From a virus: a DNA stretch of 39,291 nt. The position numbers were made by a program, and so were the translations under genes. This document shows, piece after piece, positions 2,476-33,543 of this stretch. The stretch covers positions 1-39,291 of the IMG/VR virus record IMGVR_UViG_3300032286_001259. One strand, given 5' to 3'. Below the pieces are notes generated by a model. The model searched no databases. It saw only the letters and a program-made list of their open reading frames with translations, and had not been told where the DNA came from. Numbering within the stretch: the stretch's first letter is position 1; every line of letters begins with the position of its first letter.

Positions 2476-2480
2476 GCAGC

Positions 2481-2510: not shown

Positions 2511-2519
2511 TGATAAAGG

Positions 2520-3353: not shown

Positions 3354-3382
3354 GTAATTCCTATAAATTCAAATATGCATGT

Positions 3383-3411
3383 ATTTTACACGATAAATAC
3401 TAGATGAGCAA
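3383..3411 (-). promoter_or_regulatory. sigma70-like promoter for gp55
   Basis: Minus-strand TTGCTC (3411-3406), a 17-base spacer and TAAAAT (3388-3383). Initiation near 3376 leaves a leader of roughly 22 bases containing AGGA before the gp55 ATG. This would be an early promoter, giving gp55 before late boxes are used. Confidence 0.5.
3392..3399 (+). promoter_or_regulatory. T4-type late promoter box, start of tail module
   Basis: GATAAATA, seven of eight matches to the T4 late consensus TATAAATA, placed 32 bases before the ATG at 3424. That is the same distance as the box in front of gp6. It lies inside the region occupied by the oppositely oriented gp55 promoter. Confidence 0.55.
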
Positions 3412-3423
3412 CCTTATAACATC

Positions 3424-7205: not shown

Positions 7206-9454
7206 TGGCTACAAATAGAATAGCAGGAACAAAAACACCAGCGCAGTTTGCTCGTGAGCGAGCACCTGGGATGCGTATTGATTCAGGACCGTATCTTGCC
7301 GAAGTCAAGGACAATGCAGATCAACTGTTTCATGGACGATTACGTGTTTATATCCCTGAGTTTGGAGGTAATCCCGACGATGACAAAAGTTGGTTTACGG
7401 TTAACTATGCTAGTCCATTTTTTGGAGAAGTAAACCCGTATTACGAGCAACAAAAAACCAATAAAAAGCCAATTTATGGGCAAACACTGCAATCTTACGG
7501 TATGTGGTTTGTGCCTCCTGATCTTGGAGTTACTGTTTTAGTAACTTTTGCTGTGGGTAATCCAGATTTGGGCTATTGGTTTGCATGTGTGCCGACGCCG
7601 CGTGGACATCAAATGGTACCAGGGATTGCCGGGTCTAGCAAATACCAAGAAAGTGGGGCGGCTACCAAAGCTGATTTTCCGCAAGCGCCGGTTGCTGAAG
7701 CTGTTATAGGTGATCGTGACGATTTTTTAAACAGTACTCGCCCGGTACATACTGCCCAGTTTGACATAGTTCGAAATCAGGGCATCGCCGGGGATCCTGC
7801 TCGTGGTGTTATAACCTCCAGCTCACAACGCGAATCGCCCTCTAGAGTATTTGGCATTAGTACACCAGGTCGTCCTGATCCTGATCCTGCATTTGGCAGC
7901 GACCAAATCCAGCCAGACCCGGGCTTTATTAAAAAAATAGCCGAAGCGTCTAATGGGGCTAGCTCACAATTGGCTAAAGAATTGTTTTTACCTAAGGCTA
8001 GGAAAGGCGGGCATACTCTAGTCATGGACGATGGTGATATTACTGGTAACAGTCAATTAGTGAGACTACGCTCGGCTACTGGGCATCAGATATTAATGAA
8101 CGACTCTGAGGGACTAATTTACATAATAAATGCCGCTGGGACTTCATGGGTTGAAATGACTCCCGACGGCAGTATCAATGTATATTCAGGTGGCGATGTC
8201 AGTATGCGAGCCAAAGGGTCAATGAATTTTCATGCTGATGAAAACATAAGATTTCACGCTGGTGGTAATATAACCATGAAAGCTGTGGACAATGTCATAG
8301 CTCAAGGTACAAACATTTCATTAAAAGCTGAAGCAGCATTAATAGCTGACGGGCAAACACTGTTGCTGGTAAGCGACGGGGCTGCTATATTGCACGGTGA
8401 TGGTTCGCTAATGGTAAGTTCAGGCGGAGACTTAAATATCAGTGGATCAGTAGATATTTCGTCTTCAGGCGGAAGCAAGCCTGGATCTGGGGTAGATGTT
8501 ACTACTAGGGAATTCCCTGAATCTGAAAAGTCCGGTGAGGTTTGGCGCAACAGCGGAGGTAATGCTACCGAATCGTCAGTAGGTGTGCTACCTACTCATG
8601 AGCCTTGGAATCGGCCGGCCAAACAAATTGATCAACGGGCTATACAACGATTAAATTCAATTTCTGAAAATGCTAACATCTCGCCTAATACTACCGTTAA
8701 TCGTGCAGCAGTAGCCAGTGCCAACTTCTCTAGTTTGGGCGGGGCTGCAGCCAGTCGAAGTAATAATGCATTTACATCAGATGGGACTGCACTGCAGTCA
8801 ACTCCTAAAGGTTCTCGAATTACTGCAGAGCAAATTGATGCACAGCCCGACCCGCCAAACCCACCAATAGGCAATTTAACTCCACTGCAAACCAAAGCAC
8901 TATTTGCTCAGCTGGCCCTGCGTGAAAGTGGGTTGCGTTATCAAGTTGCTGGTGGCGTAACAACTGGGGGAGCATACACCGGCAATTATTTGGGCAAATA
9001 TCAATTGGGGTCCAGTGCGTTAGTCAATGCTGGGTACATTAGTCAAACATGCCTAGACAATGAATATAAAAATAATCCAACTTACGCAGTTCGGAGCGAT
9101 GCTTGTTGGACTGGAAAAAACGGCGTTAATTCTAAGACTGACTTTTTAAACAATCCGGCGGCACAAGAGGATGCTATGCATAGTTTTACCAAAAAGCAAT
9201 ATACTGCTTTGGTTACTACTGGGGCAATAAGGTCTGGTGATACGCCTGAGGAAGTTATGGGCAAATTAACTACAGCACATTTGATTGGGTCTGGAGGCGC
9301 AACTAAATTATTTAAGACTGGAATTGACAGCAACGATGCTAATGGTACTTGGGGTAAATCCTATTACGAGCTAGGGAGGCACGCAGCCAACGTAGCTGAT
9401 AATATGGTGTACAGACAAACTTTAGCACAAAACAAGACATCTAGCAAGGCATAA
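7205..9454 (+). CDS. gp5: gp5-like baseplate hub spike with C-terminal lytic transglycosylase-type domain
   Basis: Central spike that pierces the outer membrane and cuts peptidoglycan. 749 residues. An N-terminal OB-fold region (about 28-145) has GPYLAEVKDNADQLFHGRLR and YGMWFVPPDLGVTVLVTF. A beta-helix stretch (about 268-430) shows short repeats such as GGDVSMRAKG and GGNITMKA. A Ser/Asn/Pro-rich linker follows. A C-terminal domain (about 558-735) has LRESG with a candidate catalytic E574 and a downstream GKYQLG, the pairing typical of lytic-transglycosylase folds. In T4 gp5 the lysozyme lies between OB and beta-helix, so both its position and apparent fold differ here. The stop is followed by AGGA and gp25. 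Confidence 0.85.
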   Translation: MATNRIAGTKTPAQFARERAPGMRIDSGPYLAEVKDNADQLFHGRLRVYIPEFGGNPDDDKSWFTVNYASPFFGEVNPYYEQQKTNKKPIYGQTLQSYGMWFVPPDLGVTVLVTFAVGNPDLGYWFACVPTPRGHQMVPGIAGSSKYQESGAATKADFPQAPVAEAVIGDRDDFLNSTRPVHTAQFDIVRNQGIAGDPARGVITSSSQRESPSRVFGISTPGRPDPDPAFGSDQIQPDPGFIKKIAEASNGASSQLAKELFLPKARKGGHTLVMDDGDITGNSQLVRLRSATGHQILMNDSEGLIYIINAAGTSWVEMTPDGSINVYSGGDVSMRAKGSMNFHADENIRFHAGGNITMKAVDNVIAQGTNISLKAEAALIADGQTLLLVSDGAAILHGDGSLMVSSGGDLNISGSVDISSSGGSKPGSGVDVTTREFPESEKSGEVWRNSGGNATESSVGVLPTHEPWNRPAKQIDQRAIQRLNSISENANISPNTTVNRAAVASANFSSLGGAAASRSNNAFTSDGTALQSTPKGSRITAEQIDAQPDPPNPPIGNLTPLQTKALFAQLALRESGLRYQVAGGVTTGGAYTGNYLGKYQLGSSALVNAGYISQTCLDNEYKNNPTYAVRSDACWTGKNGVNSKTDFLNNPAAQEDAMHSFTKKQYTALVTTGAIRSGDTPEEVMGKLTTAHLIGSGGATKLFKTGIDSNDANGTWGKSYYELGRHAANVADNMVYRQTLAQNKTSSKA

Positions 9455-9466
9455 TAGGATTCAACT

Positions 9467-9844
9467 ATGGCTACTTACATAGGATTTTCTACTAATCCCA
9501 AATTTAAAAATTTCAAAGCTACAGATTTTGATCTAGCGGTTGAAGATCTACTAAATCATTTCAATATAAGAATTGGCGAAAAACTCATGAACCCCAATTT
9601 TGGGTGTGTAGTTTGGGATGTACTGTTTGAAAATTTTACCGATGATGTCAGAGCTGAAGTAATTGAAAATATTGGGCAAATCATCGACAGTGAACCTAGG
9701 TTAAATCTCGTCAGCATAAATGTAGATGAGTATGACCAAGGACTACAAATAGATCTAGAACTACAATATGTAAACAGTCCGTTGTCCACTAGTCTCAGCG
9801 TGTTTTTTGACCAAAACAGCGAGCAAATCTACGTGGCTGGGTAA
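9467..9844 (+). CDS. gp25: gp25-like baseplate wedge subunit
   Basis: Sheath-platform/wedge protein that helps trigger sheath contraction. At 125 residues it is near the family norm (T4 132). The GPW_gp25 hallmark EPR is present as DSEPRLNL, preceded by the helix with NFTDDVRAEVIENIGQII and followed by the paired strands VSINVDEYDQGLQIDLEL. The ATG has AGGA 8 bases upstream. It is followed by a 57-base gap carrying a late promoter before gp6. Secure. Confidence 0.92.
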   Translation: MATYIGFSTNPKFKNFKATDFDLAVEDLLNHFNIRIGEKLMNPNFGCVVWDVLFENFTDDVRAEVIENIGQIIDSEPRLNLVSINVDEYDQGLQIDLELQYVNSPLSTSLSVFFDQNSEQIYVAG

Positions 9845-9901: not shown

Positions 9902-12900
9902 ATGCCCAGTTCACTGCGCCAGCAAACACTACTAGTAGCCGAAGATTGGAAAAAAGTTTATCAAACTTTTAGGCAAGCTGACTTTCAAAGTTATGACTTT
10001 GAAACCTTGCGGAAGAGCATGATCGACTACTTGAAGCTGTATTTGTATGAAGACTTTAATGATTTTATTGAAAGCAGTGAATATGTAGCGCTAATTGATT
10101 TGATTGCTTTTCTTGGGCAAAGTATCGCATTTAGAGTTGATTTAAATGCCAGAGAAAATTTCATCGACACGGCCGAGCGACGCGACAGTATCTTAAAACT
10201 AGCTCGGTTAATCAGCTACAGTCCCAAACGCAATACAGCAGCCGCAGGTTACTTAAAGGTAGACGCTGTGTCTACTACCGAAAATGTCAATGACACTGCC
10301 GGTAACATTCTGTCTAATCAAATTATAAATTGGAATGATCCCAATAATGACAATTGGCAAGAGCAGTTTAATGCTGTATTTAATGCCGCGATGTCATCAA
10401 ATCAGCGGGTTGGGAAACCAGCCGCGCAAACTACCGCAGGATCCACTCGATACCAGCAATACCAGTTATTATTGCCAAGCGGCACAGTTCCAGTGTACCC
10501 GTTCCGCGCTACAGTTCAAGGTATTGACACCAGTTTTGAAGTAGTAGGTACTGCTATTCAAGACGATGTATTAAGAGAGTCTGATCCGTCAATTCGAGGT
10601 GTATTTGACTTGTTATACAAAAATGATGGTCGCGGAGCGCAGTCGTCCAACACCGGCTTCTTTGTGAAATTCGTGCAAGGCCAATTGCAAAGTCAGGACT
10701 TTACTATCGCAGACAGCGTCAGCAATAGAATTGTTTCAATCAATACCAGTAACATTAACGACAACGATGTTTGGTTATTTGATGTCAATGCTGCAGGCGC
10801 TAGTACCACAATGTGGAAAAGTGTTCCGACTCTAGCTGTGTCTAATGTTGTTTACAACTCGGGCGCTAATGCAATGAAAAAACTTTATCAAATCATTAGC
10901 AGAGCCAACGATCAAATTGACTTGACCTTTGGAGATGGGAATTTTTCACAGATACCTGTAGGTACATTTAGGCTTTATTATAGAACATCAATCGGGATCG
11001 GGTATAAGATACTTCCTACTGACATGGTTCGTGTGCCAATTGTTATTGATTACCTTAGCCGAAATAACAAAATTGAAACATTGTCACTGGCTGTGAGCTT
11101 GACTACATCAGTAGCCAGTGCTAGTGCTGGTGAAACCAATGACGAAATTCGTCAACGTGCTCCACAACAGTACTACACACAAAACCGCATGGTCAACGGT
11201 GAAGACTACAACTTGCTGCCCTATACTAAATTTGCTAATATTTTAAAATCCAAAGCGGTAAACAGAACCAGCAGTGGAATTAGTCGTTATCTTGATGTTA
11301 TTGACGTTACTGGCAAGCAGTCAACAACCAATGTGTTTGGTGATGATGCAATTATATACGCAGAAAATACTGTGCAATCTTTTACATTTGATTATGCTAA
11401 CAGTGTTGACATATTAAACATGATAGGGTCTCGACTATCTCCGGTGTTGCGTAGCCGAGCCTTGCTGCATTTTTATTACGCTTATTATCGAAGATTTACT
11501 TCGGCGTTGGTGTGGCAATTAAGTACTGTTGGTACTAACCAATGCACTGGATTTTTTAGGCAGTACAATCGAGATCAGCCTAACCCAATTGGGCCCAATT
11601 ATTCTACTAATATCGTAAAAGGTACACTAGTGAAATTTGGAGCACCAGAGGGAATGCATTTTGATTTAGATAATAATCTAATACCGGGCGCTCCAAATTT
11701 TGCCATAGGCGATCGCCAGTATCTTTATGCAACAGTGGTAACAGTTATTGATGATGGCACTAATTCTAATCAAGGCAATTTGCTTGATGGCACCGGACCG
11801 GTCTCATTAAACGAAAAGATCCCGGCAGGGGCTGCTATTGTTGAGTATATACCCAATTGGCACAGTAGTTTTACTGGCGATTTCACTAGTCTTATTGTGG
11901 CTAATATATTAGCTAATAAAAACTTTGGTATATTTTATGACTCAAACAATATCAGTTGGAGAATAACTAATACTGAATTACCAAGTACCGCACTGTTTAA
12001 TCAAATAACAAACCCTTGGTTGGTTAGATTTGATTATGCTGCTGGTGTATATACAGTTTCCTATAGGTCTTTGAAATATCTAATAGAAAGCCCAATACAA
12101 ACACGTTTCTATTTTGATCCAGACTTGAAAATTTTTGACTCTAAGACTGGCAAGGTGTTAGCTGATCAAATCAAAATACTAAAATCTAATTCTCAACCCG
12201 ATAATAATTTAGGATTTCCGCAGGATCAAATTTGTCATGTATACGCACCAGTAGTAGAAATTGATGGATACATTGATTCTAGAAGAATTGAAATCACGTT
12301 CCCTGACAGTGACAGCGATGGTATTGCTGACAACCCAGATTTTTTTGAAACTATTGTATATTCAAAACTGTCTACCAATGTTAATGGGCTAGTGAATAGA
12401 ATAAATTCAGCTCGCGGATACATCAAAACATCATTGGTATTCTATGAAAAAAGTACTGATCAGTACTCGTATGTTCGATGGTTGCCTATTAACAGTAATA
12501 ATGTGTTGATTTTTGATACTTTGAGCAGCATTGAAAAAATCAAAAAACAATATCCAATGGGGCAACGGTTCTATGCCTACACAGCAAGTTTGATGTATCA
12601 ATCAGTTAAAACTGACAATGGAATTGAGATTTTTGACGTCACAGAAGATCATTTGATTCGAGAAGGTCGGCAGAATCTATTTTTTCAGTACCGGCACAAC
12701 AGTTCACAAAATCGAAGAATCGACCCTAGCCCAATCAACATTGTTGACCTTTACATTTTAACCAAGCAGTACGACAACGATTATCGACTATGGGCTCAAG
12801 ACAGTACCGGATCGGTGATTAAACCTACATTACCAACCCCTGAAGAGTTAGAAGCCAACTACTCGGATCTAAACAATTACAAAATGATTAGTGACAGCAT

Positions 12901-13303
12901 AATGTTTAATCCAGCCAAGTATAAGCCTATTTTTGGGATTGATGCGGCCCCGTCATTGCAAGCCGTTTTCAAAGTAGTTAAAGCCAGTGGGGGGTTAGCC
13001 AGTGACGCCGAAGTAAAGTCCAGCTTGATTTCAGCTGTGAATACATATTTTGCTATTGAAAATTGGGATTTTGGTGAGCCATTTTATTTCACTGAAATGG
13101 TTGCATATCTGCATCAGCAGTTAGCAACTATGGTCAGCAGTATAGTTATTGTACCAGTTCAAGAATCCAGCAAATATGGGGCATTGCAACAAATTAATGC
13201 CGAACCTGACGAAATACTAATCAGCACTGCTCGTGTTGAGGATGTAGTTATTATCTCTGCAATCACTGCTGTGCAATTGAATTCTTTTGTGTCTAACGTT
13301 TAA
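9902..13303 (+). CDS. gp6: gp6-like baseplate wedge subunit
   Basis: Core wedge protein that dimerises to form the continuous inner baseplate ring. The 1133 residues exceed T4 gp6 (660) and suggest inserted domains. The N terminus carries the conserved block YLKLYLYEDFNDFIESSE and LIAFLGQSIAFRVDLNAREN, then SILKLARLISYSPKRNTAAAG. This is the gp6 signature in marine T4-like phages. Another conserved part near residues 405-435 (GETNDEIRQRAPQQYYTQNR, then NGEDYNLLPY) matches the baseplate-J-like core. The C-terminal region (about 960-1133) includes AINTYFA-type and FYFTEMVAYLHQQ segments. It is preceded by its own late promoter and followed after 2 bases by the 1823-residue gene. Confidence 0.87.
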   Translation: MPSSLRQQTLLVAEDWKKVYQTFRQADFQSYDFETLRKSMIDYLKLYLYEDFNDFIESSEYVALIDLIAFLGQSIAFRVDLNARENFIDTAERRDSILKLARLISYSPKRNTAAAGYLKVDAVSTTENVNDTAGNILSNQIINWNDPNNDNWQEQFNAVFNAAMSSNQRVGKPAAQTTAGSTRYQQYQLLLPSGTVPVYPFRATVQGIDTSFEVVGTAIQDDVLRESDPSIRGVFDLLYKNDGRGAQSSNTGFFVKFVQGQLQSQDFTIADSVSNRIVSINTSNINDNDVWLFDVNAAGASTTMWKSVPTLAVSNVVYNSGANAMKKLYQIISRANDQIDLTFGDGNFSQIPVGTFRLYYRTSIGIGYKILPTDMVRVPIVIDYLSRNNKIETLSLAVSLTTSVASASAGETNDEIRQRAPQQYYTQNRMVNGEDYNLLPYTKFANILKSKAVNRTSSGISRYLDVIDVTGKQSTTNVFGDDAIIYAENTVQSFTFDYANSVDILNMIGSRLSPVLRSRALLHFYYAYYRRFTSALVWQLSTVGTNQCTGFFRQYNRDQPNPIGPNYSTNIVKGTLVKFGAPEGMHFDLDNNLIPGAPNFAIGDRQYLYATVVTVIDDGTNSNQGNLLDGTGPVSLNEKIPAGAAIVEYIPNWHSSFTGDFTSLIVANILANKNFGIFYDSNNISWRITNTELPSTALFNQITNPWLVRFDYAAGVYTVSYRSLKYLIESPIQTRFYFDPDLKIFDSKTGKVLADQIKILKSNSQPDNNLGFPQDQICHVYAPVVEIDGYIDSRRIEITFPDSDSDGIADNPDFFETIVYSKLSTNVNGLVNRINSARGYIKTSLVFYEKSTDQYSYVRWLPINSNNVLIFDTLSSIEKIKKQYPMGQRFYAYTASLMYQSVKTDNGIEIFDVTEDHLIREGRQNLFFQYRHNSSQNRRIDPSPINIVDLYILTKQYDNDYRLWAQDSTGSVIKPTLPTPEELEANYSDLNNYKMISDSIMFNPAKYKPIFGIDAAPSLQAVFKVVKASGGLASDAEVKSSLISAVNTYFAIENWDFGEPFYFTEMVAYLHQQLATMVSSIVIVPVQESSKYGALQQINAEPDEILISTARVEDVVIISAITAVQLNSFVSNV

Positions 13304-13305
13304 TT

Positions 13306-16300
13306 ATGGCTCAAAATAAAACCACAAACTTGCTGCCCAGTAAGTTTAGAACTAGCCCAAACAATAAGTTTCTCAATAGCGCTGTTGAACCACTGATATC
13401 CGATCCCGAGCTGCGGCGTGTCAATGGTTATGTAGGGCAACATTTAACTAAATCGTATCGAGTTGGCGATGGGTATATTCAGGAACCCACAGCAACTCGA
13501 CAGCATAGACAATTGGACCCTACACTAATTGTTTACAATAATATAACAGACAAAACCAAATTAACTGTTAGCTATGTTGAATTATTAGATAAATTGCGTT
13601 ATTTAGGTAGTACTGTTAAAAACGAAAGTATACTGTTTGAGCAAGAATTCTATAATTATTATCCTCATTTTGACGCTGACAAATTTATTAACTACGCTCA
13701 ATATTATTGGGTTTCGGGAGGGGTGCCATCGGTTTTTATTGAATCCAGCAGTGTAATTTTTATTGAAGACATTTTAGATCAACTAAACTATACTAGCCCT
13801 AATGGAGTAGTTTTTACCAATGGGTTAATAGTTAGATTTAATTCACTTACATATCCAATAGATTATCAAAATAATGACTATTATGTAGAACGTGTGGGTA
13901 CAGGCATTAAGTTAGTACGAGTTGATTCATTAGTAACTCCTGAATCTTTTTTGCCTGATCAATTTATTCCATATGCTGTTGATGGGTATGATGTGGGGCA
14001 ATACGACACTACTCTTGGGTTTGCACTAGACCCAGACTACTTTGTTATTAACAGGGCCGATCAATCACTAAATGCTTGGTCCCGCGGAAATAGATGGATG
14101 CACATTGATGTGATCCAAGCAGCTGGTGCCTATCAAAAAATTGATATTGATTTTTCACAGTTTAAAAGGGCTGTTAGACCAATTATTGAATTTGATCCTG
14201 ATATTGAATTGTTTAACCACGGCGTTAATTTTTATGGCACTGTAGATTTTATAGACACTGTAACTACTGACCCATTTAGTGATGCTAACTACACTGGTAT
14301 AGTAAACTCTTTGAATCCTCGTTTGGTCGACACAGTAAAGCTAGAGTCAGGAAACAAAATAATCTTTACTACGGCATTTGATCCCAATGTAAGAAACAAG
14401 ATTTATACAGTACAACATGACTTTTTTGGTAATACTCAGCAATCGAGAATTAGTTTAATTGCTGGTACAGAAGTATTATTGGAAAACTCTAATCTTGTAG
14501 TGAAGAATGGATCTAACCGAGGACTGGCTTTTGTATATAAAAACGGGATCTGGAGCCCTGCTCAACAAAAAGTTGGGTTGAATCAGCCGCCGCTTTTTGA
14601 TCTATTTGATCAAAATGCCAAGAGCTATTCTGATATAGACTATTATCCTGGTAGTACATTTATAGGTACTGAACTGTTTTCTTACAAAATTGGAAATGGA
14701 GTTAAAGACTCAACACTGGGGTTCCCTTTATCTTATCGAAACATTGGTAATATTGGCGACATACAGTTTCAAGACTATATAAACACTGAGGCATTTACTT
14801 GGCAGGACCTACCTGCAGGGTTTGGTAAACCAACAGTGTTAGGGCAAATTCGAAAGTCTGGCAATCTAGTTGATAATTGGCAGTTGACTGCAAATAATTC
14901 GTCACAGCGTCAAATTTTTGAATTTACAGTTGATGCGGCAATGTCTTACGTAATTGATATTGTGCCGTTGAACGGAAAAAATTCCATAGAAGTTGTAGTC
15001 AATGGCAATTTTTTAAATAAAAATGACTTTACCTATGATACAAATACAAAAATCATAACAGCGAGCAGCTGGCAAGTAGGCGACTATGTTGGTATTATTG
15101 TTATCAGTAGTCAAGTTTCTAGTCAAGCATATTATGAATTACCAATAAATTTAATCAATAATGCTGACAATCAAGATGTTGCTACAGCAACACTAGGTCA
15201 ATTACGTAATCATTATGGTTCTGCATATGGATACTCTCAAGGTGGAGTTGTGCCATCTTTGCGAGATCAACCTAAAGCTTCACTGTTAGCTGGCACTATT
15301 TTACAGCATAGCGCCCCAATAACTCCCGCAATGTTTTTTTTATGTAATAGTGATTTTGATTTTATTACCAGTTTAGAGCAAGCTCGCAGCGCTTATGGGT
15401 TTTTTAAGAAACGATTTTTAGAGGCAGCATCTACATTGGGCACATTGGATTTCAACGATGTTCCGTTGTCAGTAGATATTATTTTAGATTATATTTCTCA
15501 AAATAATTCTCCCGACATGCCTTATTATTACAGTGATATGGTAGCTCACGGCACGCAGCGCTCAAAAATTACTTATACAATTTTTAACTCCCAACAAAAA
15601 AATTACGGTATTGATTCAATTTTTAATAAAACAGTACCTTCACCTAGATCAGTCTTGGTATATTATAAAAATTCACCGTGGCGTCAATTAGTGCATGGGA
15701 AGGACTATGTATTTGAAACTGCTAGTTCTGGTATTACGTTATTAACTGAATTAGAAGCTGGGGGCATTTTAGAAATACGCGATTATGCTAATACCGATGG
15801 ATCTTACATGCCCGAAACTCCAACAAAAATGGGATTGTGGCCGGCGACAGCTCCAGAAATAAGAATTGACCGCAGTTTCCGTGATCCGCAGACTGTAATT
15901 ATAGGGCATGATGGTAGTCGTACTGTAGGATTTGGCGATATACGCGATGACATGCTGCTGGAACTAGAATTAAGAATTTATAATAATATTAAACAGCAGT
16001 TTGATCCTGCAAAACTAATTTGGCACGAAGTCTGCCCTGGTGCTTTTAGATCAAACGGTTATACTATTGATCAAGTTAACCAAATATTATCTCCTTACTA
16101 CTATCGATGGAAGGAAGAAAATAACCTTAATTTTTCAGACATTAAATTTTTTAAGAACAGTGACGCTTGGACATGGAACTACTATAATCAATTAGCTCGC
16201 GACAATTCTCGACTCAATGGCTCTTGGTCTGCAGTATTTCGTTATTGGTATGACACTGTTGAGCCAGACACTAGGCCTTGGGAAATGTTAGGCTATACTA

Positions 16301-18777
16301 CACAACCGGCCTGGTGGGAAAATAAATATGGGCCGGCCCCTTATACTTCGGGCAATACGTTACTGTGGGACGACATACGAGATGGAGTTCAAACCGCAGA
16401 CAACACCATCACCACTGTGAGAAACCCACTGTTTGCTAGACCTGAGATTTATAATTATTTGCCAGTTGATAGTCAAGGGCAGTTGAAGACGCCATTGGAA
16501 TTGTTTGTTAAATTGTTCAATGGTGCTATAACCAATACCAGTTATGCTTTTGGTATGGAGGATCCTGTAGAACATGCCTGGCGTCGTAGTAGCGATTTTG
16601 CATTTTCTGCCCAAATAGCCATGGCTGTGTTAAAACCCGCCAGATACTTTGCACTATTTGCATCAACAACTCCAGAGTCTGGCAATGATTTAGTGCCGCA
16701 TGTAACACCAACTTATTCATTTACAGTTGGTCCAACAAATTGGACCTGGAACATTGCCCGTCAATTAGAATACGAGTTTATCGTTGAGCCAACAGTTGGA
16801 TCCTGGGAAGTGTTCCTCCCGGCAACGCAGTTGTTTGTGGTGACCCCAATTGATTGGACTTGGTACATTACACTCCCGCCAGTGCCTGTAATCCCATCAG
16901 TGACATTGGGTGGGCCGTCCTGTATTGACACTACAGTTAATACCTCTATAGATTTCACCGCAACATTCAGCAATCCAGTAACTGGTTTTGACAATACTGC
17001 ACTAACATCTGCGTTTAAAAATCTGTTTGTTGGTTTAGATCCAATTAATATAACGTCAGTTAGCCCTACAGTTTACAATATAAGTTCTATAAGGAAAGGT
17101 ATACCTTATGGGATTTCAAACAGACGCACCGCCAATATAAAAGGCTCACCTGGGTTAAGTCTGCTGCTACAGGTTGGGGCCAGCGCTGCTCCACAAGGGG
17201 TCTACAGCTCAGTTGACACACGATACTCGGCACGTGATGAATCTATTCTACCAATAACATTGCCGTTCAATGTGTCATTCCCAACAAGCCCAACTAATTC
17301 TATAACTGGTAATCAGCTATGGGTCACATCAAACAGTATTATTTACTTGTCGGCAACTGAAGCAGGAACAGGGTATCCATTGAGATTGTCTAACCCGCCT
17401 GCGCCGGCCATAGTTGTGGGTTCCACTGATGGTGGTATATTTAATATATACGGCGGAACGGAAAACGGCGGAACGGAGTACAGAATAAGATGGGAAGGGG
17501 TAGCAAACTTTAAATCACCAGCTGTTGATAAAATTTGGGAAATCACATTCTACGCCAATGATCCTACCAAATACAGTATTGATATATCACCAACTTGGGT
17601 AGCCCAAGGAACAAGCTACATTAAAAATGATTCAGCACAGTTATATAACCTAACTAATGAAATAGCAGCAAACAAAGGATTTGATGTTTCTTTCGCATAT
17701 CAAGCAAGAATACCTTTTGGCGTTGCACGGGCAACAACCTATCCCAATAATGTCAATTTGACTAGCAATTTGTTGAAGATTGCGCCTTGTGTGATAACTA
17801 CTACAACTACTACAACTACTACAGCGGCACCGGGACCTGTTACTACAACTACTACATTGCCACCTACAACTACAACTACAACTACAACTACAGCGGCACC
17901 GGGATCTATTACTACAACTACTACATTGCCACCTACAACTACAACTACAACTACAACTACTACATTGCCGCCCGCACCTCCTCCACCCCCTCCCGCACCT
18001 CCACCAAGTCCTTATGCTGCGTCTTTACGAGTGGATGACAGTCTCGCTCTCACTGATACTGTGTTTGTAGTGCCAGCAGGTACTCCTTCGGGCACCGTAT
18101 ATCAGTATTTGATAGTGGGAGGAGGCGGCGCCGGTGGTTTCACCCAAGCTGGAAAAACAGCTATGGCTCGAGGAGGTGGTGGTGGCGGAGCAGTAGTATC
18201 AGGAACATTTACAGTTTCGGCCAACGATGTGATTACTTATCGTAATGGTCTTGGTGGGGCCAGTGGTATTGGTGGGCCAAATTGGAATGATGGTACTAAT
18301 ACTGTAATTTCAGTGAATGGGAAGACGTTTACTGCATTGGGCGGCATAGGAAATGCGACCTCTGTTAATGGGCAATCCAGTGGCGGTGCAAGATTTGCTG
18401 GCGGCACAGGCACTGGCAAGTTAGGCGGTGGCGGTGGCGGAGCTGCTGGGCCCGGTGCTGTTGGATCTGCAGGTGGCGATGGGGGAATGGGTGTGGAAAC
18501 AACTATTGGCGGAGTGGTATACCGGCTAGGTGGCGGTGGCGGTGGCGGGCAAGTTGACGGCCCAGGCGGCAATGTTGCTGCTGGATACGGTGGCGGGGCT
18601 GGCGGAGACCCCCAAACACCGCAGCCTGGTGATGCCGGCTCTAGTATGTCGGGCGAGCCCGGAACCCCCGGTACAGGTGGCGGCGGCGGCGGCGCGGCCA
18701 AGTCGTTATCTCAAGCAGTCCTAACTGGAGAAGGTGGCGGGGTTGGTGGGACTGGGCGAGTGATTATATATGGTTGA
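13306..18777 (+). CDS. Giant baseplate/fibre structural protein with Thr-repeat stalk and poly-Gly tip
   Basis: 1823 residues, in the position where T4 has gp7, though I see no clear gp7 sequence match. Residues 1-~130 have YVGQHLTKSYRVGDGYIQEP and DADKFINYAQYYWVSGG, a pattern known from large virion proteins of marine T4-like phages. Residues ~990-1100 have RPWEMLGYTTQPAWWENKYG and EHAWRRSSDF. About 1195-1240 resembles a bacterial Ig-like domain (FTATFSNPVTGFDNTAL). Residues 1498-1569 are a Thr- then Pro-rich linker. Residues ~1599-1823 are a glycine-rich domain starting YLIVGGGGAGG and ending GRVIIYG, typical of phage fibre tips. I infer a wedge-attached adhesin. It starts 2 bases after gp6 with no separate promoter. 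Confidence 0.55.
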   Translation: MAQNKTTNLLPSKFRTSPNNKFLNSAVEPLISDPELRRVNGYVGQHLTKSYRVGDGYIQEPTATRQHRQLDPTLIVYNNITDKTKLTVSYVELLDKLRYLGSTVKNESILFEQEFYNYYPHFDADKFINYAQYYWVSGGVPSVFIESSSVIFIEDILDQLNYTSPNGVVFTNGLIVRFNSLTYPIDYQNNDYYVERVGTGIKLVRVDSLVTPESFLPDQFIPYAVDGYDVGQYDTTLGFALDPDYFVINRADQSLNAWSRGNRWMHIDVIQAAGAYQKIDIDFSQFKRAVRPIIEFDPDIELFNHGVNFYGTVDFIDTVTTDPFSDANYTGIVNSLNPRLVDTVKLESGNKIIFTTAFDPNVRNKIYTVQHDFFGNTQQSRISLIAGTEVLLENSNLVVKNGSNRGLAFVYKNGIWSPAQQKVGLNQPPLFDLFDQNAKSYSDIDYYPGSTFIGTELFSYKIGNGVKDSTLGFPLSYRNIGNIGDIQFQDYINTEAFTWQDLPAGFGKPTVLGQIRKSGNLVDNWQLTANNSSQRQIFEFTVDAAMSYVIDIVPLNGKNSIEVVVNGNFLNKNDFTYDTNTKIITASSWQVGDYVGIIVISSQVSSQAYYELPINLINNADNQDVATATLGQLRNHYGSAYGYSQGGVVPSLRDQPKASLLAGTILQHSAPITPAMFFLCNSDFDFITSLEQARSAYGFFKKRFLEAASTLGTLDFNDVPLSVDIILDYISQNNSPDMPYYYSDMVAHGTQRSKITYTIFNSQQKNYGIDSIFNKTVPSPRSVLVYYKNSPWRQLVHGKDYVFETASSGITLLTELEAGGILEIRDYANTDGSYMPETPTKMGLWPATAPEIRIDRSFRDPQTVIIGHDGSRTVGFGDIRDDMLLELELRIYNNIKQQFDPAKLIWHEVCPGAFRSNGYTIDQVNQILSPYYYRWKEENNLNFSDIKFFKNSDAWTWNYYNQLARDNSRLNGSWSAVFRYWYDTVEPDTRPWEMLGYTTQPAWWENKYGPAPYTSGNTLLWDDIRDGVQTADNTITTVRNPLFARPEIYNYLPVDSQGQLKTPLELFVKLFNGAITNTSYAFGMEDPVEHAWRRSSDFAFSAQIAMAVLKPARYFALFASTTPESGNDLVPHVTPTYSFTVGPTNWTWNIARQLEYEFIVEPTVGSWEVFLPATQLFVVTPIDWTWYITLPPVPVIPSVTLGGPSCIDTTVNTSIDFTATFSNPVTGFDNTALTSAFKNLFVGLDPINITSVSPTVYNISSIRKGIPYGISNRRTANIKGSPGLSLLLQVGASAAPQGVYSSVDTRYSARDESILPITLPFNVSFPTSPTNSITGNQLWVTSNSIIYLSATEAGTGYPLRLSNPPAPAIVVGSTDGGIFNIYGGTENGGTEYRIRWEGVANFKSPAVDKIWEITFYANDPTKYSIDISPTWVAQGTSYIKNDSAQLYNLTNEIAANKGFDVSFAYQARIPFGVARATTYPNNVNLTSNLLKIAPCVITTTTTTTTTAAPGPVTTTTTLPPTTTTTTTTTAAPGSITTTTTLPPTTTTTTTTTTLPPAPPPPPPAPPPSPYAASLRVDDSLALTDTVFVVPAGTPSGTVYQYLIVGGGGAGGFTQAGKTAMARGGGGGGAVVSGTFTVSANDVITYRNGLGGASGIGGPNWNDGTNTVISVNGKTFTALGGIGNATSVNGQSSGGARFAGGTGTGKLGGGGGGAAGPGAVGSAGGDGGMGVETTIGGVVYRLGGGGGGGQVDGPGGNVAAGYGGGAGGDPQTPQPGDAGSSMSGEPGTPGTGGGGGGAAKSLSQAVLTGEGGGVGGTGRVIIYG
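17797..18012 (+). repeat. ACT/ACA trinucleotide repeat with a 69-base tandem unit
   Basis: Encodes residues 1498-1569 of the 1823-residue protein. Runs of ACT/ACA (Thr) are interrupted by AAPG and LPP. A unit beginning ACAGCGGCACCGGG recurs exactly 69 bases apart (17821 and 17890). It ends in a proline-rich segment. Replication slippage here would change stalk length without breaking the frame. Confidence 0.85.
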
Positions 18778-18812
18778 TGTGTCCTGCCAGCAAAACACAG
18801 CATTTCAACTTG

Positions 18813-18820
18813 AATAAATA
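18813..18820 (+). promoter_or_regulatory. T4-type late promoter box before the 2446-residue gene
   Basis: AATAAATA, seven of eight matches to the late consensus, 35 bases upstream of the ATG at 18848 in a 70-base gap. The following bases TTTAATACTTATC match those after the exact box before gp6 (TTTGATACTTACC), suggesting a conserved late-promoter downstream element. Confidence 0.65.
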
Positions 18821-18847
18821 TTTAATACTTATCGGACTTGACTCACC

Positions 18848-21800
18848 ATGCCTTTGAACAGTTTTCGTAAATCTCAAGTTGTAATCAATGGCACGACCGA
18901 CTCGTCTGGTAACGTTGTGCGTGGTGCCGGGTATCTTAATTGGGTTGCTGATCATCTGCGAAAAAACCTTCGTGCAGCAACCGACATCGCCCAAGATTTA
19001 TCAAGATCTGACATAAAATTAACTTATAGTCTTGGAGGGTACTCTTCAAAAAATTACCTGACAATACTAGGCGAGCAAAGTTCGCCCACAGCTACAATTA
19101 ACGGTATTTTGATTCCCGACGACGACTATGACATATTCTTAGATAAAAGTCAGCCGGTAGCACAAATTGTGTATAGTGCAGTTGTAGTAAGAAAAACCAA
19201 CTTGGGCTATTCAGTGTCTGGGTACGACACAGCTAGGCCATATTTTACTATCATTCCTTCACAAGCAACAAATAACAGTTATTCAATATCAATTGACGGA
19301 GTAGCGGCAACTATATTTAATGATTATGAAAATTTTTCAGTGGATATGCCGTACGAGAGTGAATTCTCGTCCGTGCAGCAGGTAGTTGATTTTTTAATAA
19401 GCTATCAAAGATATTTAGAATTCCAAGGCATACTATTTAATGACACTTCGGCGTCTCTCAAAGACACTATGGACTTTGCACTAAGTGCTCGAGAATTTAT
19501 AACTTGGCACTTGCAGGGGTGGAAAGAAAACAGTCTTATCGTATTGAGTCCACTGGCTGACATGTTAAAAGTTAATTTGCCTTTTGGTACGCCAGATCAA
19601 ATACAAAATAGCAAATTAAAAAGTTGTGTATTGGATCAAAATTACAATGTGATTAACGTCAAAGATCTTGACGTTAATCGGTACGGTAACTTTGCTTCAA
19701 TATATTCTAAGAGTTCAACAACGATTGGGCTAGTGGTATTAGACATTATTAGCTATCAACATCAGTTGATTTTTAAAAATAGAACACAGTTCAATGATAT
19801 AATTTATCAGCCTGAGCTAGGTAACCGGCAGAGTAGACTGAAAATCAACGGGACCATAACTGACAATTGGACTGGTACACTTGACGCTCCAGGGTTTGTA
19901 ATCAACCTCAATACGGTAGCTAAATGGATTGAGGATCAAAATTACTTAGTTGGCGATATTGTTGAATATAAAACTTTTTATTATGTAGCTTTAGAAAGTA
20001 ATAGTGCCACGACATTTAATTCTCGATATTGGCAGCAAGTAGATTACAGCCAAGTCAATCAAACGCTATTGCCTAACTTAACTAATCTAGCCGCAGCCGG
20101 CAGAGATTATTATAATTTTGACAATACAAATCTCAATGAGACTATTGATAATCATGCTCGTGGACTTATTGGTTACCGGCAACGTCAATACTTTAATGAG
20201 TTAGGGCTTGATAATGTAACTCAAACTAAATTTTATCAGGGCTTTATTAAAAATAAAGGTACACTGCCAGCAGTAACAGCGCTGCAGTATGTGAGTTTTG
20301 GAAAATTAACCAATACTGTTAAAATTTATGAAGATTGGGCATTCAGAGTTGGTGAATACGGCGGTATTAATTCTAGTAAATCAATAGAAATTAATCTACA
20401 AGAGCAGTATTTTTCAATTAATCCAGGCGTTGCTGTTATAGCTAACAGGCTTGGAGAAAGCGAATTAGGGTCGCAACTAGTCACTGTTCAAGGCTTATAT
20501 AAAAAGCCAGACGGAATAGAATTTGTAAAGGCAGCAGAACTTAGAAAACAAACAATAGAAGCAGGCACAATTACAGCACCCGACGATCAAACAATAGATT
20601 TAGGGACAATTGCTGCGCCCAGTGTTCGATCAGTGGATTTTGGTGTATTTGCTCAAATTGATGGTCAAATTTTTGATAACAATGTACTTGCTCGAGACAA
20701 TTTATTATACCGAGAAGATGTAATTCTTACGGCGGGTTATGTAGATCAATCTGATGTAAATGCTACTGTATTTGACATACAGGATTTGGCTGCTGACACT
20801 TTGTTGCCTGACATATATCCCGGTTATACTATTTGGTGCGCTTTAGATTACACTAGAGATTGGAATGTCTTTAGGGTAACCGAAACTGGTCTTACATTTA
20901 AAGAATTCAATAATCTATTAGATCAGCAGTTAATGATTGAGTTCAACTCAATTCACGAACTGGTAATAGGTGACGTAGTAGCAGTCAAAAATTTTAGTAC
21001 AGTATTAGATGGATTTTATCGTGTCACTGCGGTGCCAGCAATAGACACTATTGTAGTTATAGCTACAAAAAGTCTTCAAGGTTTTTCCACTGTCGTTGGT
21101 GATGACACTGGACTGTTTTTTAAATTGATCAGTCTTAGATTTAATAATATTGAAGACAGCGTTAGGTTCACTCCTCAAGACAGTTGGCGGGAAAATGAAA
21201 AAATTTGGATCGACAACTACGGCGAGCCGGGCAAATGGGCTGTTTTGGAGAAACATTCAACTTGGGCTACTACCTCTAATTCCATTTATTCCATTGATGA
21301 ACCATTAACTGGATTTGGGCTCTCAACTGCAGTTGACTTTGATGGCAACTATGTTGTAACTGGTACTAATAGCAATAAAGTTTTGATTTACACTAAAGAT
21401 TCTCTTGGTGCTTATTCTAAGTTACAAACACTATCTCCCCAATATGTGGGTCGTGGAAATTTTGGCACTCGTGTAACGTATATTGGATCTTTACTAGTTG
21501 TTAGCGATCCAGGATTTAATAAAACTGGTGCAGTAATAGTTTATCAAAAAAATGCTGCAGGGCGATTTGAGGCCATACAGTTTATTTCCCCGGTGTTGTC
21601 TGGAGACCCAAAATTTGGATTCTCTGCTGCACTCAGTAATAATTTTTTAGTAGTAGGGGCTCCTGGGGCTAATACTATCTACATCTATAAGAAAGAAACT
21701 CAAACTAAACTTATACTCAGCGTACCATTGCCGAGATCTACAAAAGTTACATTACCGACAGCAATCAATTCAAGAGATTCTATAATAATATTGTCTGACT

Positions 21801-24800
21801 TAGGCGATATAGTATCCCCAAGAACATACACTATTAGTGGTTCAGATATTATATTTAATACAGTGCCTTCAACAGCGTTTAGTGTGTATCAACCCACTGA
21901 GTTTTACAAGCAGTTTCAAATAATCAACGATATCACTATTAGTGGGTTGGATGATTTCTTTGGATATAGTCTAGAAATCAATGAAGCAGAAGATAAAATT
22001 TATGTTGGCGCTCCTTATGCTGATGTATATGATAATAACTTGCAGCAATTTGTTGATAACTCGGGCCGAGTTATAATGTACGGTCTTTATAATGACAGTT
22101 TTCAATTCGTTGAACAAATTGAGCCTGTTGTTCCTCAATTAAATGGAGAGTTTGGGGCTTCAATTAAAGCTGCAAAAAATGATTCTGCATTGTTTGTAGG
22201 GGCCCCGGGCGTAAGTTTTACTACTTCGTATAATTCAGGACAAGTTTATAGATTTGTTAACTTAGGGCAAACTACAGGGGCAGTTACTTCGGTAGAGTTC
22301 AATGGTTCAGTAGTTGGATACGGTAGTATTGTGATTAATGGGGTCGTCGTTACAGTCACTGGAAATCTTGGAAATATAAAATCACAAATTGATTCTGCTA
22401 ACATACCTTATATTAATACCAGCATCAACAGTCAAATTTTAACCATTAAGTCTAGTTCAATAGTTGACTTTGATAAACTTTCTGTTTTGCCCGGGGCCGG
22501 AACAGCGTTCCAACAATTGGGCTTTAAGTTTGTAATTGAAGCTCAAGTGATACCTAACCCTATAAATCGAAATCTCAGTAGATTTGGTGGGACAATTGCA
22601 CTAAGTGAAAATAACAATCAACTGTTTGTAGCTTCTCCTAGAGCTACTTCTATTTTGAGAACAATCTTTGACAACGAAACTTGTTATTTTGATTCAAAAG
22701 CTACAGTATTTCAAGATCAAACCACCGACAGTGGTAGTGTTTGTGTGTTTGAATTTATCAAACCTGTAAACTTCACAAACAGTAACTTGGGCAGTTATAT
22801 CTTTGGACAACAGCTAGAAGCAACTACAGTAAGCGGTGGAGATCTATTTGGCTCATCGTTGGCTGTTGCTAAAACTACAATTTTTGTCGGGGCTCCTGGG
22901 GACGACATACAGTCCAGTATCGACAATCGCGGTCGTATATTGCAATTTAAAAATCCTGGAATTGACTCTCTGTGGGCACAAATTAAAACTAAACAATTGT
23001 TAGTTGACACTGACAAAATTAGTCGCGTGTTCCTTTACAACAAAAAAAATAATACCATAGTAACACCCCTTGACATTGTTGACCCAGTAAAAGGACATAT
23101 TTTAGGTACAGCGCGTCAGTACTTAGACTATGTAGAATCACAGGATCCGGCCGATTACAACCGTAGTAGTGGTATTGATGTTGCAGGGGTATCTCGCATT
23201 AACAATTACAATTACTGGTCTGATCAGTACGTGGGTCGGTATTGGTTAGATACTAGTCACATCAGATTTGTGGACTACGAACAACAGGATTTAATTTATA
23301 GAAAATCTAATTGGAATCGGTTGTTTCCTGGTAGTGAAGTTCGAGTATATCAATGGGTTGAATCAGACGTATTACCGGCCGAATATAGTAACTACTATTC
23401 GGGCACCCCCAAGTATGTTGATGACGAATCCTATTCAATAGTATACACAGTTGACAAAAATACTAACGCAATTCAAACTCGATTCTATTTTTGGGTTAGG
23501 GCGCTCAATACCAAACCAGACTTTAAAGAGTTGAGCACCACTGTAATTGAAGAGTACATAAGTAATCCTAAGTCTGCAGTAATACCGTATATTGCATTTT
23601 ATTCACCTAGCGCATTTGGCTTGTACAACAGCGACAGCTATATTGATGCCGATAATACAATATTGCATATTGGGTACGATTTATCGTCTAATGAGAATGT
23701 AATACATTCTGAATTCCAATTGGTGCAAGAAAATAGCAGTACTAGCGCTTTACCTCAGCGTGTACTTAAAAAGCTAGTTGATAGTTTAAGTGGTATTAAT
23801 TTAATTGGTGATACAGTGCCAGATCCTTTGTTGCCAGTATCCCAGCGTTACGGCCTTGGTATTAGGCCTAGACAAACAATGGTTATTGATCGTTTGGCCG
23901 CACTTGAAGTTTTTGTTAAAACAGCCAACGAGATACTAATGTACTTGCCCACCGCTAGCAGAATTATTGGTACTGACTTTTTTTACAAAGACACCACACA
24001 CGATGCTACAAAATTCTGGCGTAAGAGTGACCGAATCGTTGAGGGGTTTGACTCTAACACACCAATTCAACACTCAGTGTCTAAGTTTGCTGATATTAAA
24101 AAAATAAACTACGCTGTTGGTACTGTAATAAAAGTAACCAACGACGGCGAACCTTACACAATTATAAAAATAACTGCATCGGGCTTTGACATTCTAGCAC
24201 AGGAAAACGGCACGATCACGCTATTGCCAACAATCTATCAAACTGCTAATCCTAATCGCGCTATAAGAAAAGTATTAGAAAGTGTATTTTATCAATTGTT
24301 TATTGAGGACTATGCTGTTCATGCTAATAAATTGTTTTTTGCATTGACTCGGTATTTGCTTCGAGAACAAAAAAGTCTTGACTGGGTGTTTAAAACTAGT
24401 TTTATAACTGTGGATCATGTTGTAACACAATTTGAACAGTGGCCTAATTATCAACCAGACAATACAACGTATCTAACTGACTTCCTCAATGAGGCTAAAC
24501 CCTATCATACTAAAATACGAGAATATCGTCCGCAGTATAATGGTATAACAGTGGGGCAAATTGGTGCAAGTGATTTTGATTTACCTTCTTATTACGATTT
24601 TGAAAGGTCAAATTTCCATACCCCCTCGGGTGAAAGTGCCGACGATGCTGATTTATGGCGTAGTCGAGAATATTACCAAGACTGGTACAATAATTATAAA
24701 TTAGGCGTAACAGCTCTTTCGATTGCGGACGCTGGGTCAGGATACTTGACTCCTCCGTTGATTACTGTTAGTGGGGGCGGAGGATCTGGTGCTAGAGTTC

Positions 24801-26188
24801 GAGCAAAAATTAATGCTGGTAAAATTGTTGACTTTATATTTGACAGCCCTGGTACTGGTTATACCACCATACCTACAGTTACCGTAACTAGAAATGGAAC
24901 AGAACCACTGCTAGACTTTCATCTTATTGCTGCTGCATTGTCTGAAAAAGTAGCCGGAAAAGTTATTGATCCAATTCTAGATGCAGCATTCACTAGTCGA
25001 GTCGGTAGCTTTCAACTTGGTGATTTAAACAATACTGGTGTAATAACTGCACTAGATGCAGCATTGGCACTGAGCTATAGTAATAACCAACTATTTGACA
25101 ATGCTTTTGATCTTGCTAGAGTTTCGGCAAAAATGGCCGGCATTTATAATTACTTGATCACACATAATGGCAAGATTGGATTGGCTGGTAATGCGGTGTT
25201 AAAAGCAAAAATCACCAATAGTACAACTAGAAACTTTTATATCCAATTATTGTTTGATCGTGTTTGGTATCAAGCCACCAATGGCGACCCTGGCTTTGAT
25301 GTAAACTTGTTTGACGATGACAATTTTGACGATGGTGACCCTGCGTTTAATTATCAAACAGCATTGGATCGAGTACGCCAATACTATACTGGGCGACCTG
25401 GGCAACCCGGGATTGATTATGGACAATTGTTCAATGGCGTAGATTTCCCAGGTTATAATCTACGCAGTATTGACTTTAGTGTGGCTGGCGGGTATGATGG
25501 AACAGAATACGACATGTCTAGTCCAGCAATAGGTTACGACGAGCAAGTTACTGCGACCGATCTTACTGAAATGACGGTTTACAGCACGTACAGGGATTTG
25601 CTATTAGGGACGCGAGCAGAAGATATAATATTTGATGGTGGCAAATTTATTGATGTCGCGCATAGCCATGCCCCTGAGGAATTGGTGCCAGGAATTGTAT
25701 TTGATACCTTGGAAATTCGTGTGTTTCACAAATTCGCTGATTCCTCAGTACCCAATGTAGCTTTTAGAATGTTTAAAAATCTATTAGATCAATACACTTA
25801 CTACCGTATGGCAGCGTCAAATGCAACCGCTCTAACTCAGCCTTTGTTGATCACAGACACTGTAATCTCAGTGGTATCAGCTGCTGCATTAGATGCCCCC
25901 TCGCCCAATTCAGCCAAGCCTGGAATCGTATTCATCAATGGCGAACGCATTACTTATTTTGAACGAGATTTAGTCAATAATCAACTAGGGCGTATTCGAC
26001 GTGGAACTGCCGGCACCGGTACACCCCAAGTGCATACAGTAGGATCAGCAGTGGTTGGGGCAGGGTCTTCTCAATATATCAATGATGCCCATAACAATGT
26101 TTGGTACGACCTCGCTGTTGGACTTGAAAAATCTACATCTGAGACTGCATTGTTCTTAAAAGACCAAGCACCGGTAGCAGCAACTTGA
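18848..26188 (+). CDS. Giant (2446 aa) virion structural protein with FG-GAP-type propeller and dockerin-like loop
   Basis: Longest gene in the window. The N terminus (1-~330) has YLNWVADHLRKNL, ILIPDDDYDIFLDKSQPV and VVDFLISYQRYLEFQG, and residues ~490-510 have EDWAFRVGEYGG. I recall these patterns from very large structural proteins of marine T4-like phages. Seven FG-x-S/A...VGAP...-type repeats begin at residues 823, 872, 923, 1038, 1102, 1246 and 1334, as in integrin-like beta-propellers. Near 1878 is FLNEAKPYHTKIREYRP. Residues ~1960-2015 hold GSGY/GTGYTTIP beta repeats. A dockerin-like calcium loop is at 2059-2070. A terminal module near 2358 has GIVFINGERITYFERD. Likely a peripheral baseplate or fibre-attachment protein; the exact role is unknown. 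It starts behind a late promoter. Confidence 0.65.
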   Translation: MPLNSFRKSQVVINGTTDSSGNVVRGAGYLNWVADHLRKNLRAATDIAQDLSRSDIKLTYSLGGYSSKNYLTILGEQSSPTATINGILIPDDDYDIFLDKSQPVAQIVYSAVVVRKTNLGYSVSGYDTARPYFTIIPSQATNNSYSISIDGVAATIFNDYENFSVDMPYESEFSSVQQVVDFLISYQRYLEFQGILFNDTSASLKDTMDFALSAREFITWHLQGWKENSLIVLSPLADMLKVNLPFGTPDQIQNSKLKSCVLDQNYNVINVKDLDVNRYGNFASIYSKSSTTIGLVVLDIISYQHQLIFKNRTQFNDIIYQPELGNRQSRLKINGTITDNWTGTLDAPGFVINLNTVAKWIEDQNYLVGDIVEYKTFYYVALESNSATTFNSRYWQQVDYSQVNQTLLPNLTNLAAAGRDYYNFDNTNLNETIDNHARGLIGYRQRQYFNELGLDNVTQTKFYQGFIKNKGTLPAVTALQYVSFGKLTNTVKIYEDWAFRVGEYGGINSSKSIEINLQEQYFSINPGVAVIANRLGESELGSQLVTVQGLYKKPDGIEFVKAAELRKQTIEAGTITAPDDQTIDLGTIAAPSVRSVDFGVFAQIDGQIFDNNVLARDNLLYREDVILTAGYVDQSDVNATVFDIQDLAADTLLPDIYPGYTIWCALDYTRDWNVFRVTETGLTFKEFNNLLDQQLMIEFNSIHELVIGDVVAVKNFSTVLDGFYRVTAVPAIDTIVVIATKSLQGFSTVVGDDTGLFFKLISLRFNNIEDSVRFTPQDSWRENEKIWIDNYGEPGKWAVLEKHSTWATTSNSIYSIDEPLTGFGLSTAVDFDGNYVVTGTNSNKVLIYTKDSLGAYSKLQTLSPQYVGRGNFGTRVTYIGSLLVVSDPGFNKTGAVIVYQKNAAGRFEAIQFISPVLSGDPKFGFSAALSNNFLVVGAPGANTIYIYKKETQTKLILSVPLPRSTKVTLPTAINSRDSIIILSDLGDIVSPRTYTISGSDIIFNTVPSTAFSVYQPTEFYKQFQIINDITISGLDDFFGYSLEINEAEDKIYVGAPYADVYDNNLQQFVDNSGRVIMYGLYNDSFQFVEQIEPVVPQLNGEFGASIKAAKNDSALFVGAPGVSFTTSYNSGQVYRFVNLGQTTGAVTSVEFNGSVVGYGSIVINGVVVTVTGNLGNIKSQIDSANIPYINTSINSQILTIKSSSIVDFDKLSVLPGAGTAFQQLGFKFVIEAQVIPNPINRNLSRFGGTIALSENNNQLFVASPRATSILRTIFDNETCYFDSKATVFQDQTTDSGSVCVFEFIKPVNFTNSNLGSYIFGQQLEATTVSGGDLFGSSLAVAKTTIFVGAPGDDIQSSIDNRGRILQFKNPGIDSLWAQIKTKQLLVDTDKISRVFLYNKKNNTIVTPLDIVDPVKGHILGTARQYLDYVESQDPADYNRSSGIDVAGVSRINNYNYWSDQYVGRYWLDTSHIRFVDYEQQDLIYRKSNWNRLFPGSEVRVYQWVESDVLPAEYSNYYSGTPKYVDDESYSIVYTVDKNTNAIQTRFYFWVRALNTKPDFKELSTTVIEEYISNPKSAVIPYIAFYSPSAFGLYNSDSYIDADNTILHIGYDLSSNENVIHSEFQLVQENSSTSALPQRVLKKLVDSLSGINLIGDTVPDPLLPVSQRYGLGIRPRQTMVIDRLAALEVFVKTANEILMYLPTASRIIGTDFFYKDTTHDATKFWRKSDRIVEGFDSNTPIQHSVSKFADIKKINYAVGTVIKVTNDGEPYTIIKITASGFDILAQENGTITLLPTIYQTANPNRAIRKVLESVFYQLFIEDYAVHANKLFFALTRYLLREQKSLDWVFKTSFITVDHVVTQFEQWPNYQPDNTTYLTDFLNEAKPYHTKIREYRPQYNGITVGQIGASDFDLPSYYDFERSNFHTPSGESADDADLWRSREYYQDWYNNYKLGVTALSIADAGSGYLTPPLITVSGGGGSGARVRAKINAGKIVDFIFDSPGTGYTTIPTVTVTRNGTEPLLDFHLIAAALSEKVAGKVIDPILDAAFTSRVGSFQLGDLNNTGVITALDAALALSYSNNQLFDNAFDLARVSAKMAGIYNYLITHNGKIGLAGNAVLKAKITNSTTRNFYIQLLFDRVWYQATNGDPGFDVNLFDDDNFDDGDPAFNYQTALDRVRQYYTGRPGQPGIDYGQLFNGVDFPGYNLRSIDFSVAGGYDGTEYDMSSPAIGYDEQVTATDLTEMTVYSTYRDLLLGTRAEDIIFDGGKFIDVAHSHAPEELVPGIVFDTLEIRVFHKFADSSVPNVAFRMFKNLLDQYTYYRMAASNATALTQPLLITDTVISVVSAAALDAPSPNSAKPGIVFINGERITYFERDLVNNQLGRIRRGTAGTGTPQVHTVGSAVVGAGSSQYINDAHNNVWYDLAVGLEKSTSETALFLKDQAPVAAT

Positions 26189-27890: not shown

Positions 27891-27901
27891 TAAACCCAAA
27901 C

Positions 27902-29515: not shown

Positions 29516-29554
29516 TAAAGAATATGGTGTTTTTAATGGCAAGGATCGCGTAAC

Positions 29555-33499: not shown

Positions 33500-33543
33500 T
33501 GTAAGGCTTTATTAACTCAAGAATCTAGATATAGGCACATTTA

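Follow-up and report, generated by a model that had tools for sequence, protein, structure and literature searches.

Propeller domains are already known from the attachment parts of several phages, and those found on baseplates have been proposed to bind receptors (PMC4901313). In S. aureus phage phi11, the receptor-binding protein Gp45 carries a five-bladed propeller with a GlcNAc-sized cavity, and in phiKZ a seven-bladed propeller, gp131C (PDB 4GBF), is located at the periphery of the jumbo-phage baseplate (PMC4901313), while other examples were described from the nozzles of T7 and SU10 and from phAss-1 (PMC10607447). An FG-GAP propeller protein is also present in the virion proteome of a haptophyte virus (PMC11953307). 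The literature searched returned no paper that links FG-GAP to a phage baseplate, tail or virion. Thus, baseplate propellers as such are known (phi11, phiKZ), but the FG-GAP family, the place and the distribution described below appear not to be.

The window, that is, the whole stretch of 39,291 nucleotides analysed here (positions 1 to 39,291 of IMG/VR virus record IMGVR_UViG_3300032286_001259), is a virus fragment in which a run of T4-type baseplate genes precedes two giant ORFs and, after them, fibre-like genes (Table 1); a megablast search with it found no near phage record. The gp6-like gene lies immediately 5′ of the two giant ORFs, which are separated by a 70-base gap (18778-18847) and both match phrog_10938, a single 'virion structural protein' of about 3.3k aa (E = 3e-177 for the 2446-aa and 3e-123 for the 1823-aa ORF). 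The 2446-aa ORF is homologous to residues ~1450-3850 of PA5oct gp355. In L006, L007, PA5oct and most relatives the giant protein is encoded by one ORF (~3.3-5.5k aa), and a split was also found in L004 and L005. The original prediction had placed an integrin-like propeller inside a 2446-residue phage tail protein; the length of that protein was reproduced, whereas its designation is better given as part of a giant protein adjoining the gp6 wedge gene than as a generic tail protein.

Several peculiarities of the surrounding genes were also recorded. Residues 1122-1823 of the 1823-aa ORF (window 16669-18774), a stretch of ~700 aa, are missing in the L004 and L005 counterparts and in all fetched loci; they contain repeated Thr-rich linkers (TTTTTAAPG, TTTTTLPP) and end in a glycine-rich domain (PF21722, E = 5.5e-7) that recalls phage adhesin tips, and may represent an adhesin recently added to the split N-terminal half. 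Within the 2446-aa ORF, residues ~557-598 (~20516-20641) form an insertion of ~41-50 residues, GIEFVKAAELRKQTIEAGTITAPDDQTIDLGTIAAPSVRSVDFG..., seen in the window only when compared with its four nearest relatives. Further downstream, the tail gene cluster includes a collagen-repeat fibre protein (33544-34725; PF01391, E = 5e-28), right after which a subtilase-family protease is encoded (34728-36440; PF00082, E = 2e-23).

Seven FG sites had been predicted at residues 823, 872, 923, 1038, 1102, 1246 and 1334 of the 2446-aa ORF, and all of them were present at exactly these residues together with VGAP/VASP/VSDP-type strands, in agreement with the V-G-A-P-type strands expected; an extra FG at residue 1319 is no blade start. 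Profile searches assigned the repeats to the FG-GAP family, with Pfam FG-GAP_2 (PF14312) matching the whole 2446-aa protein at E = 1.2e-8 (35.5 bits, cut-off 23) and residues 799-1400 alone at E = 5.9e-12 (46.0 bits, above the gathering score of 23), as well as 21 of the 22 alignment members at E ≤ 0.01. A blade HMM trained solely on remote relatives, whose propellers are ~20-26% identical to that of the window, recovered six of the seven sites, clearly at 871, 922, 1038, 1101 and 1334 and weakly at 1245, and did not match the residue-823 blade, the weakest one, as a whole blade. Eight of 1000 shuffled controls contained a blade above 3 bits, in each case a single one.

AlphaFold2 modelling of residues 799-1400 with a 22-sequence alignment yielded a confident seven-blade model (mean pLDDT 85.2, pTM 0.86), in which the strands are arranged as seven FG-a-b-c-d units, i.e. 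four-stranded blades, plus an N-terminal strand at residues 807-813. This strand, lying before the first FG, matches the 'd' strand found before every other FG, and blade 7 has no clear d strand of its own; judged from the modelled topology and the structural match, residues 807-813 would therefore complete blade 7 as its fourth strand, which is the usual ring closure. In a Foldseek search against the PDB, the top 20 matches were without exception integrin alpha chains (E from 2e-12, best target-normalised TM 0.61), so that integrin alpha heads are the best solved matches; the query-normalised TM (0.37-0.47) is low because of the inserts in the propeller. Integrin alpha also ranked first in PDB profile searches, both with the window propeller (alpha-6, E = 8e-9) and with the profile of a remote clade (alpha-4, E = 8e-16). 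A profile was required, as a single-sequence PDB search gave noise only (GPR84). An independent model of L076, a member of the remote clade, was equally confident (pLDDT 86.4, pTM 0.86), again with integrin alphas on top (TM ~0.65).

Based on the PF14312 matches, the AlphaFold2 models and Foldseek, the integrin-like seven-blade reading is upheld, and residues 807-1378 are predicted to form a closed seven-bladed FG-GAP_2/integrin-alpha-head beta-propeller, a fold that we regard as secure at the level of the models. That the repeats instead form an open beta-solenoid, or are chance FG matches, could be argued from the poor blade-profile score of blade 1, but it is strongly contradicted by the confident models, in which two mutually remote members both have integrin heads as their best matches, and is very improbable. 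The domain had been expected at 21314-22960; its location stands, while its start lies slightly further upstream (~21266-22981) because strand 807-813 precedes the first FG. Both larger inserts foreseen between the repeats are real and fall at ~955-1020 in blade 3 and ~1142-1228 in blade 5. The insert 1 region has a weak profile similarity to the tailspike proteins 7rfv/7rfo (E = 0.04), and insert 2 may correspond to a Flagellin_IN-like stretch that two of 22 relatives showed.

Table 1. Features of the window and of the propeller in the 2446-aa ORF (residue numbers refer to that ORF unless stated otherwise).
Feature	Position	Strand	Evidence or remark
Wedge subunit	start 4321		window's baseplate run
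gp5-like baseplate hub and tail lysozyme	7205..9454	+	
gp25-like baseplate wedge subunit	9467..9844	+	
gp6-like baseplate wedge subunit	9902..13303	+	phrog_10646, E 1e-291; phrog_219, E 9e-22
1823-aa ORF	13306..18777	+	its residues 1-1121 make up the giant protein's N-terminal part
2446-aa ORF	18848..26188	+	C-terminal part of the giant, putatively baseplate-associated virion protein; propeller at residues 807-1378
Seven-bladed FG-GAP_2 propeller (predicted), residues 807-1378	21266..22981	+	profile, AlphaFold2, Foldseek
N-terminal strand 807-813, putative fourth strand of blade 7	21266..21286	+	model secondary structure
Blade 1, residues 823-862	21314..21433	+	FG site, model; lowest by blade profile
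Blade 2, residues 872-913	21461..21586	+	blade profile, model
Blade 3, residues 923-1030, broken by insert 1	21614..21937	+	blade profile, model
Insert 1, ~955-1020, a small, largely beta domain that evolves fast	21710..21907	+	model, dN
Blade 4, residues 1038-1091	21959..22120	+	blade profile, model
Blade 5, residues 1102-1236, broken by insert 2	22151..22555	+	blade profile, model
Insert 2, ~1142-1228, alpha/beta, fastest evolving	22271..22531	+	model, dN
Blade 6, residues 1246-1322, short extra strands/insert	22583..22813	+	blade profile weak, model
Blade 7, residues 1334-1368	22847..22951	+	Pfam, blade profile, model
Fibre-like genes	26826-34725		downstream of the giant protein

Compared with the heads of integrin alpha-5, alpha-4 and alpha-6, which likewise consist of seven four-stranded FG-GAP blades with insertions between strands, the window propeller is only ~12-17% identical, lacks the thigh/calf Ig-like stalk, the membrane anchor and the beta partner, and is flanked by phage structural protein. 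The DxDxDGxxD calcium loops of integrin alpha were found neither in the window nor in any of 88 family rows; a calcium-dependent integrin-like binding is thus unlikely, and any binding would be independent of this motif. Repeat type and fold are shared with other viral proteins matching PF14312, including FG-GAP proteins of giant viruses and the cyanophage S-TIM5 virion structural protein H6WG31, as well as with the Atu_ph07 'hemagglutinin' and an FG-GAP protein of Vibrio phage nt-1, but these are listed as separate proteins, whereas in the window family the propeller is a fixed module of the giant protein beside gp6. With phiKZ gp131C it has in common the seven blades, a jumbo myophage, the baseplate and a suspected receptor binding; however, phiKZ belongs to a different phage group, and 4GBF was absent from the PDB profile matches and from the top 50 Foldseek matches of the window propeller. 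phi11 Gp45 is likewise a baseplate propeller and a proposed host-glycan binder (GlcNAc on teichoic acid), but it has five blades, is a trimeric separate receptor-binding protein and is not described as FG-GAP (PMC4901313).

A scan with the conserved C-flank identified 80 loci in viral contigs, and the propeller profile was present in 76 rows and absent from Phosso, PA5oct, L028, L087 and L089, proportions that are biased because the scan query was derived mostly from propeller-bearing sequences. The propeller is likewise absent in RaK2, GAP32, Vibrio 2.275.O, SCTP-2 and Atu_ph07, and the cultured propeller-less relatives (RaK2, GAP32, PA5oct, SCTP-2, Atu_ph07) retain the scaffold with the flanks. 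By flank alignment, the propeller lies in the interval from residue ~530 to ~1379 of the window protein, where the flanks are ~850 residues apart, compared with ~320 aa and no FG repeats in PA5oct. As the iterated propeller profile contains ~20 flank residues, blades were also counted with the separate blade profile, by which seven was the commonest number (37 rows) and six to eight were found in 67 rows. In a tree of 87 rows built from the flanks only, 77 of them with the propeller, one branch with 100% SH-aLRT support separated nine propeller-less rows (seven cultured, L087 and L089) from all others, with L028 as the sole propeller-less exception inside the propeller group; the tree is unrooted with several long branches, so that the change of propeller state could be a gain or a loss. 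The propellers of remote members are ~20-25% identical to that of the window. The propeller is a clade-specific module in the giant protein, and the two scaffold halves on either side of it occur in its absence as well.

The evidence that the giant protein is part of the virion comes from homologues lacking the propeller. The PA5oct homologue was detected in the virion by mass spectrometry, and the phAPEC6 virion proteome includes a 382-kDa protein with 17 peptides, listed immediately after the baseplate wedge protein (PMC7247149), which by size and order would be the homologue gp245. The equivalent giant protein of RaK2, GAP32 and PA5oct (phrog_10938; by size and order also phAPEC6 gp245) follows the gp6-like wedge in the same order; unlike that of the window, the phrog_10938 protein of RaK2, GAP32 and PA5oct is without the propeller. 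In T4 terms this would be the place of gp7, but hhalign gave a probability below 1% for all three profiles and only the gene order agrees, from which the exact baseplate (wedge) position is therefore deduced. When profiles of the N- and C-scaffold parts were searched against the PDB, matches stayed at chance level. Taken together with the gene order, the virion data of the homologues would place the giant protein on the baseplate.

As to the function, our leaning is towards contact of this calcium-motif-free, integrin-type propeller with the host surface, which we rank as the most likely role. The giant protein would be present in several copies per baseplate, whose propellers would form a contact platform facing the host surface in addition to the separate fibres, and the putative ligand would most likely be a glycan or a glycosylated surface structure. 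A protein- or glycan-binding role is suggested by what occupies the slot in relatives: in L028 (7349-10003) a GDSL-type acylhydrolase (PF13472, E = 3e-11) is found where relatives carry the propeller, and CBM5/12 occurs inside the propeller region above the Pfam cut-off in L077, at the cut-off in L081, and below it in L069 and L096. Motifs of the CBM5/12 type are frequent in structural proteins of phages and need not imply sugar binding. The GDSL replacement, the CBM5/12 insertions in L077 and L081 and the about twofold dN of blades 1-3 and the inserts relative to the scaffold were counted in favour of surface contact, as was the receptor binding proposed for baseplate propellers of other phages (PMC4901313). 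Since the propeller is near-universal in the uncultured lineage and missing in its isolated cousins, it probably serves surface contact and does not belong to the core scaffold.

Evolution rates were compared among the window and its close relatives L001, L002, L004 and L005, for which dS is near saturation. Blades 1-3 and the inserts had a dN about twice that of the scaffold in the window/L001 and window/L004 pairs, with a smaller excess in other pairs, while blades 4-5 (residues 1023-1140) were as slow as the scaffold in the window pairs. Such a pattern is consistent with, and no proof of, one side of the propeller being docked and the other exposed. All propeller parts and the scaffold are under purifying selection, on which ground a hypervariable receptor tip was rejected. 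The propeller differs in this from many receptor-binding tips, which also counts against host contact, as do the fibre-like genes downstream, which may do all of the adsorption.

The scaffold-like conservation of blades 4-5 fits a second, less probable role, in which the propeller would serve inside the virion as a platform for assembly or docking, to which fibres or adjacent baseplate proteins attach, and make no host contact. Integrin heads are binders of proteins, and several fibre genes that need an attachment point lie directly downstream; however, cultured relatives make a baseplate without the propeller, and the hydrolase replacement and CBM5/12 insertions better suit surface contact. 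Improbable in our view is a purely structural spacer that enlarges the wedge and has no specific partner. Although no member conserves the calcium motif, no catalytic site was recognised in the propeller, and repeat domains commonly accumulate in giant tail proteins, the retention of the propeller by nearly all members of so divergent a clade (77 rows, with ~20-25% identity to the window propeller in remote members) and the fact that seven is the most frequent blade number argue for a selected function.

Returning to surface contact, a broader reading is offered tentatively and with less confidence than the contact role itself: the propeller may be a lineage-defining host-contact domain on the wedge of a large uncultured jumbo-phage clade, in a slot exchangeable with a hydrolase, so that the attachment site would lie on the injection machine and not on the fibres. 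An integrin-type ligand-binding fold would then belong to the injection apparatus of a large-phage group that is widespread, sharply separated from its cultured cousins and not represented by any isolate in the phage collection searched. Should the domain bind host surfaces, it would provide a soluble, expressible handle for finding hosts and point to a baseplate slot where surface-contact domains swap.

Two further loci were noted. The one contig returned by a scan for host clues, a 6-kb contig binned in a Pacearchaeota MAG (NZDU01000057), carries a family member (L110, 1586-2575); it is possibly a misbinned phage contig and says nothing reliable about the host. Sinorhizobium phage Phosso (PV764938), whose own giant wedge-linked protein has no propeller, encodes a separate 3692-aa 'hypothetical protein' (L008, 1251-12329) with ~35 FG-GAP blades, enough for about five propellers.
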